In this document: positions 23,386 through 40,283 of the stretch, in pieces
How the letters are laid out: the number at the start of each line of letters is the position of its first letter
Position numbering within the stretch: the stretch's first letter is position 1
NCBI GenBank assembly: GCA_945873815.1
Contig: CAMCEE010000002.1
Span: 1 to 64,000 of the forward strand
Origin: an uncultured Caryophanales bacterium
GTDB taxonomy: Bacteria > Bacillota_I > Bacilli_A > RFN20 > CAG-449
Direction of reading: 5' to 3'
Length of the DNA: 64,000 nt
Notes under the pieces: generated by a model
Database searches by the model: none
What the model was told of the DNA's origin: nothing
What the model saw: only the letters and a program-made list of their open reading frames with translations
Translations under genes and position numbers: made by a program

Positions 23386-23500
23386 AAAAATTCGGTTTTT
23401 TTGGGTATATGATGATGTATTTATATAAATATTATTTATATATATTCCTTTTTGTTATATAATTTCTTTGGAAAGGTTCTAACATTACTTTAAGAATTAG

Positions 23501-24211
23501 ATGAGAAAAGGTTTATTTAGACTAGTCATTGCAATCCTTATTTCTTTACTCGGAATTACCGTTTCTTTTTGTTATGCGTGGTTTACTACAATTGAAAAAT
23601 CTCAAATTGAAGGTTTATCTTTCCAACTCATTGATGATATTGAAGGAAATGTTGAAATCATTGAAGGAGAAGGTGACTCATCAAAGGGTATTTTCTACTT
23701 TGGCTCTAGAATGGAATATAAGATTAAAATGCTTCGCGATATTACAAATTTAAAGGTTACTGGAGAAACAATTTTTCCTACATATGGTGAATTTAAAGCA
23801 CATTTTGAAAAACATGAAGATTTGTTGCTTGGAACATATAATAAATGCTTTAAAGACGGAGAAAAAGTTTATCAATATGTCTACGATATTGAGAAAGATG
23901 ATAATGTCAATAAGATTGATTTCTTATTTAATTTCTTGATTAATAATGATATTTTTAATGCAATTGATGTTTATGTCGAGAATCAAAAATTAATTTATCA
24001 TTCTTCTAACGACAAACCGTATTTCACTTTACCTGATCCAGAAACTGTATTTAATATGGGTATTGAATATTCATTATCTATAGCGATAGGCGAAAACGAT
24101 TTTTGTCCGACATATCAAAAACAAAATGAATCGTTTTACTATCTAACAAATAGTTTGAATTGCTTTTTATTAAGTCGAATTAATTTGAGTTTTGAATCGC
24201 AAATAGTATAG
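23501..24211 (+). CDS. Exported/anchored protein with TasA/camelysin-like N-terminus
   Basis: MRKGLFRLVIAILISLLGITVSFCYAWFTTIEKS; first gene of the LRR surface cluster. Confidence 0.7.
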   Translation: MRKGLFRLVIAILISLLGITVSFCYAWFTTIEKSQIEGLSFQLIDDIEGNVEIIEGEGDSSKGIFYFGSRMEYKIKMLRDITNLKVTGETIFPTYGEFKAHFEKHEDLLLGTYNKCFKDGEKVYQYVYDIEKDDNVNKIDFLFNFLINNDIFNAIDVYVENQKLIYHSSNDKPYFTLPDPETVFNMGIEYSLSIAIGENDFCPTYQKQNESFYYLTNSLNCFLLSRINLSFESQIV

Positions 24212-24219
24212 GAGAAAGT

Positions 24220-27200
24220 ATGCAAAATAATCCATTTAAGAAAATTATTATTTTAGTTATTTCATTACTTGCGACACTTCTTACAGCTGTCGGAGTTACT
24301 TTTGCTATTATCGCAAACCAAAATGTAAATAGAACTCATCAAATTGATATCGAATCCACGAACGTTACTTTTATTTATAATAATAAAACATATTTTGATG
24401 AAATTGGAACCGATAATATCAATTTGGATAAAGGTGTTCCAAGCGATGTAAAATTGAAAATTGAGATTGTTGGAACAAAAAAATTTATGGTCAATTACCG
24501 CGTTGATTTTGATCTTGAAATAAACGAACAAAATAGAGAAAAGAGCGAGATGCTCGCAAAAGCAATTGAAGTCTATGTTTTAGAAGATGGACATTATAAA
24601 AGTATTGGCGATTTGAATGATTTTTCAAATTATTTTTATAGTTCTCAAATGATTACAAATTATAGTAAAGAAGTATTTTTACGATTCATTTATTCTAAAG
24701 AAACATCAACCTCGTATGATAACTTGGCAAAAGAAGGCAATATAAGAATTGTAACGCGTGCTAATGCGGAAACAATGGATAATGCTGAATATATTTATAT
24801 AGATGAATCGAATGATTTTAAAGAAGCACTTTTATCGAATAATAATGTGACGATTGTTTTAATTAACGATATTACACTAAATGAAGATTTGACGGTTTCT
24901 AATAGAATAGGAATAGATTTAAATGGTCATAATTTAACGTTGAATAATAATATAAATATTTCGTATACGCAAGATTCGTTTGATGAAACAAAAAGAGGAT
25001 TAATTGATTCTCAAGGTACTGGTAATTTGCTAGGTACAGGGAAAATCACTGTATCGACAAATGAAAGTTATTTAGTAAGTAAAAATATTTCTAATTTACG
25101 TTATTCTATTTCAAATGTTAATTCTCATTTGTCGGATTTAAGTTTGACGATAAAATCTAGATTAAAGGATATAGAAGGTACTTATCATTATCCTGGAGAA
25201 GACTTAACTTACATTCTAAAAGATCTTGAATATTACATTTCTTATTTTGGTCTTACTTCGGAAGAAGGCGTTATTTCTTATAATGATGGAATTTTAAAAA
25301 TTCTTGATAGCGAAAATATTAATATAACTACAACATATTCTTATTCTTTAAGATTATCTGGGGCATATATTGACGGAAATATTCAATTATATGGTAATTC
25401 ATTAGAACAAATTGCACTCGATATTAAAAATAGTATTCCTGATACTATCTCTTCGACTATCTTATTGAAAACATATGATCAATATCGAAATGTATATATT
25501 GATTGGAGTGTCCAAGATGGTTTAGATAATAATCTTATGAATAACAATGGAATCTATTTACCAAACGGGAAGGCATTCATGGAGACAATCGATTCCTTAG
25601 AAGATACTGATATTCTTTTTACGATGAAATTAGTTAAAGGAATCAATCATTACGTTTATTCTTTTAAAAAAACTGGTGAATTAATCTCGATTGAAGATAA
25701 AGGTAATCTGTTAATTGATTCTCAACCTTTAGCTTTGAATTCTAATACGATTTATTCAGGCTATTCTTTATCAAATGAAACGCTAAATAAATATGGGGTT
25801 AAGAAAGTTGAGATTATTTTTCCTTCAAATGAAGAACCATATAAATACTTGAGTATAACTCCTGATAATAGAATAATCGTCGATGCTCTTGAGCAAAATT
25901 ATCGTAAGGAAGGAACATTGAATGTTAAGTTGACATTTAATGATAATAGGACGTTTGTAAAAGAAGTGCATTTCTTATTGTTAGGCGATAATTCATATGT
26001 TACAGAGTACGATATTTTATACCGCTTAGAAAAAGCTTTCAAAGATAATATGTATACTCGTGGTGAGGGAAGGGAATTCTTAGTTCCTGGTTCTTTATCA
26101 CCTCAATCGAGCAATGAATCAAAAGAAATCTTCGTTCAATATACATTTGATAATTCCATTAAAGATGCGATTTCAGCACTAACTAAATATTCACTAGTTT
26201 CTGAATATGAAGATCAAATCTCATATTATCTTAAAGATGGTGCAAACTATGTATTTATTAGAAATCTAAATAACCTAACATATGTTTATAAGAAAGTCGT
26301 TTCTCCAACTTTTGGAAATGAGTATTTTATATTAATAGATGGGAAATATCAAAAAACAAATGATTTATCTTTAGGAGTAAATTATTATTCTAGACATACT
26401 GCTTTATTTGAATATCAAGAAGCTAATCCGACAGATAATTCCAAAACTTATTATGTTTTCAGTAATGGAAGATACATTGAAGCAAATGATTTATCAATTG
26501 ATAGAACATATTATGAAAGAATAGCTGTTGAAAAAGACATATACAGGAAAGATATTTGCATAGAAATCCTCTTTAATAAGATTTCGTTTGTCAATAACAA
26601 AGACGTTAATGTTCATGCGGTACTATATACTCTAGATAGTGAAGGAAATATCCATTACGTAGATGATGTTCCAGGAATCAATGTTTCTGGAGATGAATGG
26701 AAAAAGATGGAATATGATTTTTCATTTACTATCAAAGGAATAATTCAAAACAATGAAAATGGGATTCTAGATCATAATTTATATTCTTTCCTATTGGCTT
26801 GTTTCGACTGTAATGGAGATTCGATTATTAACTTCGATGAAAGCGAATTGACATGGGATGAAATTATTCAAAATGCAATAAATAATGGGTATAGCAGTTT
26901 GATTGGTACTGTTACAGATTCAAAAGCACCTGATTACAATAACAAATATCTAAAATTTGAAAATATGAATATCACTTCAATAAAGGGAATCGAATATTTC
27001 CAAAATATTGAAGGATTATCTCTTGAAAATACATCGATTAGTAATATCTCATATTTAGAAAGTTTGAAGAGACTTAAATATTTAGATTTATCAAACAATA
27101 ATATTGCAGATCTTTCTTCTATATCACTTATGGATGATATTATCACACTAGATTTATCGTTCAACCATATTTCTGATATCGAGCCTTTAAGATATTTAAA

Positions 27201-30200
27201 AGCTATTTCGTCTCTCAATTTGGATAGTAATACAATTGCAGATTTTGAACCACTAACGGAAATGACTACACTAAGAATGCTTAATGTAAGTAATATGAAG
27301 AAAAATGATTCTATTTCTCTTGCGCTTGATGCAAGCAGCAAATATGCTTGGGCTTTAGTTATTGCAAATAATAAGAATTTATCTAATATTACTTATAAAT
27401 TAGGCTCTTCAACATATACAATTACCGCTTCGTTAGTTGAACAAGCTATCGCAAAGGCTATGAAAGATGTATATATGATTAACCGCGTATATAAGACATT
27501 ATATTTGCCTACGGTTTACTATTATGGTGGAGTAACGTATGAACTTGAATGGTTTAATGATTCTAATGCAAACATTATTTTACAAAAGCCAGATGGAAAC
27601 CATAATTATCAATTATATGAGATTAAAAACCCATTTATTGATAAGGCATTAACTCTTCGTGTACAAGCTAAAAATGGTTCAAATTATTATGCTATTACTA
27701 GAACATTTAATATTACGATTGAAAAAGAACCAGGTACAGAAGCAATTCTATATTATAACAAACAATATATTGATTTGCTTGAGAAAGATATATCAACTGG
27801 TAAACTAAAATTCATTGAAGATGAGAGCTTATTGAGTGCAATCTTTGAAAAATTTAATACGATTACTGAAGGATCATATGATGGAAAAGATGAGAAAAAC
27901 CTTGTTTCATTAGATGATTGGAATTCCTTTGATGAAGTTAATATTGATTTCTCATATAAGAATATTACCTCATTAAAAGGTATTGAATGCTTAAATATGG
28001 TTGGGCATACTTTTACCCTTGATTTATCTGGAAATAAAATTGATGATTTATCGCCTTTAATCTTAATAAAAGATAAAATTAAATCGCTCAAATTAGGTGG
28101 ATATAATTACGATATCGCAACTCTTGTTGGTGATGATGAACGTGGAAGAATTACTAAACTTGAAGTATTGGATGTATCTAATTGCTATCAAATTGATGAA
28201 TATCTTCCAGAATTATATGAACTATATATACATAATCCAGTTGTTAAGATTTATATAGAAACTAGTTATGATACTGATAGCAATGCTTATTGGAATCCAT
28301 ATGAGGAATTGCTTCCTATTTATCTATCAGAAATTCCTAGCGTTTTAACATTTGGAATGGTTAATCAATCATATTATATTTACGATATGATTAGTGGTGA
28401 TACTACGAAAAATTCATATACATTTAATTTCTATGGATACGACTATGATTTCTATTTAGATTCTTCTTCATCGAAACTTTATTATCCAACTAGTGTAAGT
28501 GCATATAATAATTTTAAACTTAGAAATGATAATGAATTATATCTTGCTTCTATTCCTCCACAAAGTGGATCATATGGATTTGATTTATATTTATCTGCAA
28601 GCGATACTCATGGAGAAATCAGTTGTAATACATTAATACAATTAAACTATCTTGGAATTGAACAACGTATTGTAGTACATAATTCAAAGGGAGTGAATTT
28701 TGCTGATTATTCTTCTAGTGCTGTTTTACTTAAGCACCTTATTGCTTCTCCAGAAGTAAGAGTGATAGTTTTAACGAGATTAAATGATAATGGTTTCCGC
28801 ATGTTCTCATCTGATGACTACCGATATAAAGATGGGTCGTTAAATGATTATCTTTCTTTTGATGCTAGTTTAAATGCAACTTCACTCTCGGTTTGCCGAT
28901 ATTATTTAAAAGATGATGTATATCATATTTCTACGAATGTTCTAGCAAATATTACTCCAGGCGAGATTACTATTAATGGACCTAGTGATCATGAAAGTAA
29001 AACATTATTATATGGATTAAGATATCTTCCAAAAGTTACTAGAGTTACGATTAACCGTGATTTTGCATTTGGAGATGGAGCTGATTTAGTCAATCTTACA
29101 AGTCTAGTTGTTAAATATGGTTCAATCGATATGACAAAACTAAGATATCAATTAAAAATCACAACAATGTCCTTTACTGAATGTTTCTATTTTAATTCCA
29201 ATGCTGAGGTAGTAAAAAAATATTTACCAGATTTGGTATCATTTACATACTCTTACCAATGGACTAAAGATAAGAAAATTTGCTTCTTAGATGATTATCG
29301 TTGGACGAAAGGATTGATTGATGAAAATGGTAAGTCTAAAATAACTGTATTCAATGTTTATAAATCGATTGAAAATAGTAGTAAGCGCGGAATTATTGTT
29401 AAGAACGTAGAATATATTAAAGATTTATATCTTGCAAGTTTGAAAAATCAAAATAATGATAAAAATAAATTGTCATTTAAGATTGGTAGTCCTTCGAAAA
29501 ACGAAGATTCATCATATTTCTTCTCAGTAGATGCTTTAGGCAATATGGGTGTTAGTACATCTAAAAACCCGGATTCTTTTGATATGATGTGGGAGGAATC
29601 TTCGGAAGCAATCAATTCTGCTTTTGATACAAAAGATAACATCAATCTAGATAATATCGTAAATAATAATATGATTAATGGATTGGGTTTAAGAGTAGAT
29701 GGAACAACCTATGTATCTTTAGCTTCAACTGATTCTAGGAGAACAAAGATTACAACTTCTAATTATATTACTGTCCCTTCTTCTTCTGGTAAAGAACTAT
29801 ATGGTCTGGTTTATGGAAATAATTCAACGATTCACAATAGTTATCCAATTACATGGAAGTATATTTATAATCCTTCGGGATCATATTCTTCATCTAATCT
29901 ATGGTCGTTAACGAATAATACACTTCAAGGTGATTTAAATACTTCATCCTTGTCATCCTATTTTACTATAACTTTAGAATCTGAAGTGTATAAGATTGTT
30001 CCAAAATCATCCGCGAATGGGTATTTATTCTTGTTTGGTATCTTGAATAATAAATATTTATATGGTTACGATTTCGTCGTCAATAGTGGAGATAATTTAT
30101 TTACTAGTCTTCCTGATGTAACATTAAGAGAATATCTTTTCTCTTTATCAAAATCGAATCCAAAAACAGCGATTAACGCTACTAGCGCAATCTCGAAAAA

Positions 30201-38777: not shown

Positions 38778-40283
38778 ATGGATAGAACATATATTTGTAT
38801 CGACTTAAAATCATTTTATGCTTCCGTTGAATGCGTAGAAAGAAAGCTAGATCCTTTAACAACGAACCTTGTTGTTGCAGATCAAAGTCGTACCGATAAA
38901 ACGATTTGTCTTGCTGTATCTCCATCTTTAAAATCTTTAGGTATTCCTGGTAGAGAAAGATTGTTTATCGTTAATCAAAAAGTAAAAGAAGCAAATATCG
39001 AAAGAATGAAGAAAACACCTAATGGAAGGTTTATTGGTAAATCAAGCAATTATGAGGAATTGAAGAATAATATAGAATTAGAAATTGGATTTGAGATTGC
39101 TACTCCTCAAATGGCAAAATATATTGAAATAAGTTCTAAAATATATAATGTTTACTTGAAATATGTGGCAAAAGAAGATATTCATGTTTATTCAATCGAT
39201 GAAGTCTTTATGGATGTTACAAGATATCTTAAAGGAAGGAATATGGATGCATATACGCTTGCTGAAACGATGATTTTGGATGTTTTATCTACTACGGGTA
39301 TTACTGCAACTGCAGGAATTGGAACTAATATGTACTTAGCTAAAGTTGCGATGGATATTGTTGCAAAAAAGAAAAAACCTGATGAAAATGGGGTTAGAAT
39401 CGCTTCGCTTGATGAAATGCAATATCGTTTTGAATTATGGGATCATACTCCGTTAACGGATTTCTGGCGTGTAGGAAGAGGAATTGAAGAAAGATTAGAA
39501 AAACTTGGTCTTTATACGATGGGAGATATCGCATTATGTTCGGAAGGCAATGCAAATGATTATTATAATGAAGATTTATTGTATAAGGAATTTGGGGTCA
39601 ATGCCGAATTATTAATTGATCACGCTTGGGGATATGAACCAACAACGATAAGAGATATTAAGTCTTATAAGCCAAATGGAAAAAGCGTTAGTTCTGGTCA
39701 AGTTTTACATTGCGGATATGATTATATAAAGGCACGATTGATTGCAAAAGAGATGATAGATAATTTATCACTCGATTTAGTAAGTAAAAATCTTGTTACA
39801 AATCAAATTGGATTATATGTTGGATATGATATCAGTAATATAAGCGAAAAATATAGTGGTGAAGTTAAAAAAGATTATTATGGTCGAATAGCTCCTAAAT
39901 CTAGTCACGGCGCGATTAATCTTGGAGATTACACTTCCTCTTCAAAAAAAATGATTTGCGCTTTAGGTGAACTTTTTGATAACATTGTGAATCGAAAACT
40001 ACTGATTAGAAGAATAAATGTTTCTGCGAATAATGTTTTGTACGAGAATGAGGCAGAGAAGATTAGAAAAGTTGAACAATTATCTTTATTTGATTCTTAT
40101 GAAAGAAAAACTGAAAGTGAAAGAAAGAATAAGGAAGTTGAACAAAGAGAAAAGAAAGCACAAAAAACAATTCTGGAGATTAAAAAGAAATATGGTAAAA
40201 ATGCAATTCTAAAGGGAATGAATTATGAAGAAGGTTCAACTGCAAAAGAAAGAAACGAACAAATTGGAGGTCATAAAGCATGA
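38778..40283 (+). CDS. Y-family DNA polymerase (UmuC/UvrX-like)
   Basis: YICIDLKSFYASVECVERKLDPLTTNLVVAD...VYSIDEVFMDVT...GIGTNMYLAKVAMD. Confidence 0.9.
   Translation: MDRTYICIDLKSFYASVECVERKLDPLTTNLVVADQSRTDKTICLAVSPSLKSLGIPGRERLFIVNQKVKEANIERMKKTPNGRFIGKSSNYEELKNNIELEIGFEIATPQMAKYIEISSKIYNVYLKYVAKEDIHVYSIDEVFMDVTRYLKGRNMDAYTLAETMILDVLSTTGITATAGIGTNMYLAKVAMDIVAKKKKPDENGVRIASLDEMQYRFELWDHTPLTDFWRVGRGIEERLEKLGLYTMGDIALCSEGNANDYYNEDLLYKEFGVNAELLIDHAWGYEPTTIRDIKSYKPNGKSVSSGQVLHCGYDYIKARLIAKEMIDNLSLDLVSKNLVTNQIGLYVGYDISNISEKYSGEVKKDYYGRIAPKSSHGAINLGDYTSSSKKMICALGELFDNIVNRKLLIRRINVSANNVLYENEAEKIRKVEQLSLFDSYERKTESERKNKEVEQREKKAQKTILEIKKKYGKNAILKGMNYEEGSTAKERNEQIGGHKA

Follow-up and report, generated by a model that had tools for sequence, protein, structure and literature searches.

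In Bacillus subtilis, an N-terminal donor strand links TasA subunits, whose signal peptides are removed by SipW (PMC9674648). SipW-containing loci have been described as tapA-sipW-tasA in B. subtilis and as sipW-tasA, capP and calY in B. cereus (PMC9674648, PMC10151520, PMC13082335). In B. cereus this region also encodes an accessory protein, CapP (PMC13082335). A search of open-licence papers gave no account of LRR proteins at SipW/TasA loci.

The window, i.e. the whole stretch of 64,000 nucleotides analysed here, contains a four-gene operon whose second gene (24220..33195) encodes a giant protein of 2,991 amino acids; every gene, domain and site placed in the window below lies on the + strand. 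By analogy, this operon would be a larger elaboration of the SipW/TasA theme. It has in common with TasA/camelysin (CalY) loci the presence of SipW-type peptidases in the source genome, N-anchored partners encoded together and the lack of a sortase anchor; for the N-terminal domain of the giant, a match in fold is tentative. Unlike those loci, the operon carries no SipW, and the giant is about ten times larger, has LRR modules and shows no sequence-level TasA match. A second comparison is with the internalins InlA and InlB of Listeria. The giant likewise has 22-residue LRRs, and its first LRR block matches internalin and internalin-like structures; however, it has neither an LPXTG tail nor a C-terminal hydrophobic segment, its LRRs start about 900 residues into the protein (aa about 908) and continue as scattered degenerate blocks, and its N-terminal half is different. 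BspA-type (LRR_5/DUF285) proteins of Bacilli and Mollicutes are also N-anchored LRR proteins, and DUF285 and weak LRR_5 members occur at SipW loci of relatives. The repeats of the giant, in contrast, are of the SDS22/internalin type, and no LRR_5 or DUF285 repeats appear among its Pfam results.

The reading preferred here, with roughly even confidence, is that the giant is an extracellular modular surface adhesin exported by way of SipW and possibly headed by a TasA-like domain. Its probable display on the cell surface is well supported, and it may bind a ligand there. The first-pass annotation missed the operon, its SipW connection and the comparable giants of congeners, which together explain the gene better than the open reading frame alone.

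The operon and its putative export route

The four genes lie on one strand (23501-37363), the first three spaced by 8 and then 14 bp and the last two overlapping by 4 bp, and every downstream gene has an AGGA-type ribosome-binding site; the spacing suggests co-transcription. A promoter-like site (TTTATA-17-TATAAT, 10 of 12 consensus matches; 23435..23463) is found just upstream of the operon. Shuffled sequences contain such sites at least as often, and what is suggestive about this one is just its position. Gene 1 (23501..24211, 236 aa) and gene 4 (36446..37363, 305 aa, overlapping gene 3) each encode a hydrophobic N-terminal segment followed by AWFT, and the gene 1 product is proposed to be a small SipW-exported partner. 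No known family was identified in either of them with Pfam and NCBIfam profiles; a CoxB match of gene 4 was rejected as chance (23.7 bits against a cut-off of 147.7). Gene 3 (33210..36449, 1,079 aa) encodes a second N-anchored LRR protein. Its LRR block (aa 790-925; 35577..35984) is homologous to block 1 of the giant (hhalign E 4.7e-8) and scores 40 bits against the LRR profile described below. Segment-by-segment comparison of the giant with gene 3 by hhalign returned LRR matches only, apart from a weak one in the solenoid stretch. A mobile island was also considered, and searches for flanking repeats and an adjacent tRNA at the operon gave no signs of one.

In each of the four products, the only hydrophobic segment is at the N-terminus, and an LPXTG tail or C-terminal anchor is absent from all of them. 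In the giant, this signal or anchor segment spans aa 9-31 (24244..24312). The source genome, a 1.8-Mb draft in 39 contigs, encodes two SipW-type signal peptidases over the TIGR02228 cut-off. The better of the two matches the SipW model NF046067 at 2.6e-22, which is below the cut-off of that model. On the same contig, about 120 kb separate the operon from the SipW locus. SipW-type enzymes occur in 33 of 41 relatives in the order, so their presence alone is not specific.

A further connection is provided by a short motif. The 276-aa protein encoded beside SipW in the source genome starts ...STYAWFTV, and the corresponding N-terminal motifs of genes 1 and 4 are ...FCYAWFTT and ...PIFAWFTI. At the same position, the giant and gene 3 have the variants TFAII and VYAYS in place of the motif, which weakens the SipW claim for the giant itself. 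A membrane segment followed by a [YF]AW[FYL]-type motif was found in 11 of 167 open reading frames at SipW loci (one locus of the source genome and 16 of relatives), compared to 0 of 193 in the background, and in two of the four operon genes. The corresponding Fisher p-values of 1.8e-4 (SipW loci) and 3e-4 (operon) are optimistic because the motif was first drawn up with the operon in view and then broadened once the SipW loci had been seen. SipW dependence of the export of the giant is moderately supported, with export itself predicted from the N-terminal segment.

Profile searches were negative. Neither TasA nor Peptidase_M73 was matched in the four operon proteins by Pfam or NCBIfam at E up to 1, and SipW-cognate signal profiles matched none of the four. 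The 276-aa SipW neighbour in the source genome also escapes these profiles, which indicates that their sensitivity is low. Comparison of the N-terminal domains of the four operon proteins by hhalign, with each other and with SipW-adjacent Acetoanaerobium proteins, detected no homology.

The SipW locus of the source genome (L057; C2:149000-168900) encodes N-anchored proteins of 245 and 276 aa, then proteins of 547 and 577 aa between the two SipW peptidases, followed by an EAL cyclic-di-GMP phosphodiesterase. A similar-sized pair between two SipW genes is seen in relatives (L118, L119, L124, L125, L126 and L128).

The N-terminal domain and the cassettes of congeners

An AlphaFold model of aa 37-262, built from two sequences, was of modest quality (pLDDT 61.6, pTM 0.45). 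TasA had been named as the test beforehand, and in a search of 350,542 PDB chains the top match was the TasA fibre 8aur (prob 0.99, E 8e-3, TM 0.34), with the TasA entries 5of1 and 5of2 also within the top 20. In a control search against a viral structure library, the same model gave unrelated matches with E 4e-3 and prob up to 0.91. As these scores are comparable, the TasA match is a lead that fits the operon evidence, not proof. The model is suggestive of a TasA/camelysin-like head, which may occupy aa 38-185 (24331..24774). A longer two-sequence model of aa 1-1031 was discarded (pLDDT 36), and a keratin match of the N-terminal profile of the giant was compositional.

Comparable gene sets are found beside SipW in congeners. 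In G003 (L125, L129, L132), proteins of 739 and 339 aa, whose N-terminal segments end ...SFSWY and ...SFAWY, and then a giant of 6,295 aa come after the second SipW, all within about 4 kb of it. This giant spans L129:3479 to L132 (G003 C3:40479-59365) and has Flg_new repeats and weak CBM26 matches. In G002 (L128, L130), proteins of 213, 312 and 2,210 aa similarly follow SipW; near its N-terminus, the largest of them (L130:2356-8988) shows a weak LRR of the BspA type that falls below the Pfam cut-off. Both giants lie 3-4 kb downstream of SipW, and by eye their N-termini look homologous to each other. In the relative G034, a BspA-like LRR protein (DUF285, 2.6e-45) is encoded beside SipW. No sequence relation to the proteins of the window was detected for the small cassette proteins or for the giants of G002 and G003. 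The scheme of small proteins with a membrane segment and AW motif plus a giant nevertheless recurs in congeners.

These observations bear on the strongest alternative, in which the giant is an ordinary membrane-anchored LRR/Ig surface protein with an uncleaved signal anchor, involving neither SipW nor TasA-like partners. Such a protein would need no AWF motif, no TasA or SipW-cognate profile match and no adjacent SipW, as is the case here, and other large LRR proteins are common in the source genome. It would leave aside the SipW-locus signature of operon genes 1 and 4, the first rank of TasA in the fold search and the comparable giants beside SipW in congeners, and it is considered a serious but somewhat unlikely explanation.

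Repeat modules and possible ligands

The first-pass annotation had divided the giant into five LRR blocks separated by long unannotated stretches. These blocks were scored with a profile of class-wide LRR proteins, with about 900 shuffled segments as the control. Block 1 (aa 908-1026; 26941..27297) is a clear, regular array of the internalin/SDS22 type with a 22-residue period, scoring 113 bits over aa 915-1023 (26.96-27.29 kb). In the PDB it matches InlA (E 1e-26), InlB and related LRR structures, the last with E down to 6e-33. The only Pfam family over the cut-off in the whole giant is LRR_4. Block 2 (aa 1245-1320; 27952..28179) is degenerate and probable, since its 18.9 bits (aa about 1249-1300, about 28.0 kb) exceed every shuffle (top 8.7) and it aligns to block 1 by hhalign at E 1.5e-6. 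Blocks 4 (aa 2030-2110; 30307..30549) and 5 (aa 2670-2785; 32227..32574) are possible degenerate LRRs, as their marginal scores of 7.2 bits (aa about 2040-2140) and 8.6 bits (aa 2631-2830) are within the shuffle tail. Blocks 1 and 5 have in common a 22-nt direct repeat of 91% identity (27177-27198 / 32322-32343). Block 3 (29.0-29.2 kb) is unsupported, at 0.3-1.2 bits against the LRR profile, which is chance level.

The suggestion that the stretches between the blocks might be new domains held in part. No segment outside the LRRs is assigned by Pfam or NCBIfam, but these segments do not look categorically new: the N-terminal stretch may be TasA/camelysin-like, to judge from the fold search, and others appear solenoid or Ig-like by eye. 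A beta-solenoid-like stretch starts at aa 190-290 (24787..25089, ...IDLNGHNLTL...), its type assigned by eye, with short regular strands in the AlphaFold model and conservation in the JAISJY010000102.1 relative discussed below. A bacterial Ig-like domain was recognized by eye at aa 389-485 (25384..25674); this region has no Pfam match and shows 35% identity to the same relative over aa 379-480. Separately, a short YxxxxDGxY...DLS...YY motif occurs twice, imperfectly, within aa 701-766 (26320-26517).

Block 1 is the best candidate for a ligand-binding surface of the giant. LRRs of characterised internalins bind proteins. Instead of acting as a cell adhesin, the giant could be a matrix or surface protein that captures substrates, e.g. 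polysaccharide or starch particles, as might be suggested by the Flg_new and the weak CBM26-like domains of the 6,295-aa giant of G003. This is quite improbable for the 2,991-aa protein, in which Pfam identified no carbohydrate-binding domain and the recognisable module is an internalin-type LRR.

Integrity and distribution of the gene

The reading frame consists of 2,991 codons from an ATG, stop-free inside (24220-33195), and an AGGAGA sequence provides a good ribosome-binding site ahead of the start. The chance of so many open codons at the base composition is about 1e-116. A codon model trained on 23 other genes of the window preferred this frame in each of 58 sliding windows. The synonymous codon use of the gene correlates with that of the rest of the window at r = 0.989. 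These codon statistics gave no hint of either a frameshift join or foreign codon usage. One-frame coding together with matching codon use indicates one gene of native composition and not a join of fragments, so the uninterrupted 9-kb frame reported by the first-pass annotation is real and complete, with coding signal throughout. The strong selection proposed on that basis can be given as plausible long-term selection, in view of the clean frame and a colinear relative at 28% identity. The description of the genome as one of small genes did not hold, as there are other open reading frames of 8,190, 2,590 and 2,436 aa.

Two further large proteins of the source genome can be described. The frame of about 8,190 aa, much longer than that of the giant, is on C8 (around 39456-39866, L040) and has weak LRR matches and an N-terminal hydrophobic segment. 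A 2,432-aa LRR protein on C3 (L042:5487-12785) has a hydrophobic C-terminal tail, KKGCKGSIIAISS...YKKKK, which has the look of an unusual surface anchor that lacks LPXTG.

In a set of 279 genomes from the order, the sole relative of the non-LRR part of the giant is on JAISJY010000102.1, from "Bacillales bacterium isolate Hs463_bin23", which belongs to another family of the order. It is colinear with the giant over aa 47-999 at 28% identity, which supports a single architecture over this range, and it ends in LRRs of the same type; both of its ends are cut by contig ends. No relative of the giant or gene 3 was detected in the genus or family, and the order yielded no convincing relative of gene 3 or gene 4. 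A scan of the genome collection with the whole giant gave no match, and no relative of it was found in the viral collection. In a class-level search with a profile of aa 1-1031, the matches listed fall only in the LRR end of the profile. The upstream gene addA has 43-48% identity in the five congeners with a full-length copy, and in congeners it is followed by genes other than those of the operon. The scarcity of relatives and the different genes after addA point to an accessory, fast-diverging locus. That the frame is an assembly artefact or a decaying gene is very unlikely, for although the coordinates rest on sequence assembled in a draft genome of 39 contigs, the single frame in all 58 windows, the native codon use, the ribosome-binding site, the tight operon and the colinear relative all argue against it.

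A proposed mechanism and its meaning

For the giant as an exported adhesin, the following route can be proposed. The protein would be targeted by its single N-terminal hydrophobic segment, exported by Sec and processed by one of the two SipW-type signal peptidases. The order of domains in the protein would be a head that is perhaps TasA/camelysin-like, a beta-solenoid-like stretch, and Ig-like domains with LRR modules. The mature N-terminal domain might then associate with the small partners encoded by genes 1 and 4, as TasA subunits do by donor-strand exchange, so that the giant would be retained in a matrix or on a fibre with no need of a sortase anchor. Such assembly with small partners is proposed by analogy. 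Finally, the LRR and Ig-like modules would face outward and could bind a partner, which may be a host, a protist, a polysaccharide or a neighbouring cell. A bolder form of this proposal, unlikely as it stands, is a fibre-borne adhesin system in which TasA-like small subunits, assembled by donor-strand exchange, display giants with a TasA-like N-terminal domain. If true, pilus tip adhesins would have a counterpart among Gram-positive bacteria in this system, and each species would swap an unrelated giant module and keep SipW export and the small partners.

The novelty of this locus lies in the combination and in the repeated occurrence of giants alongside SipW; the molecule itself is not of a new kind. 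If the preferred reading is right, SipW/TasA-type export would serve more than the biofilm fibres for which other bacteria use SipW, and in Bacilli with small genomes it would also carry surface proteins that are very large and diverge fast. A membrane segment followed by AWF or AWY near SipW could serve as a testable rule for recognizing such proteins where profiles fail. The proposal would also provide a first functional guess for the giant open reading frames of uncultured Bacilli.
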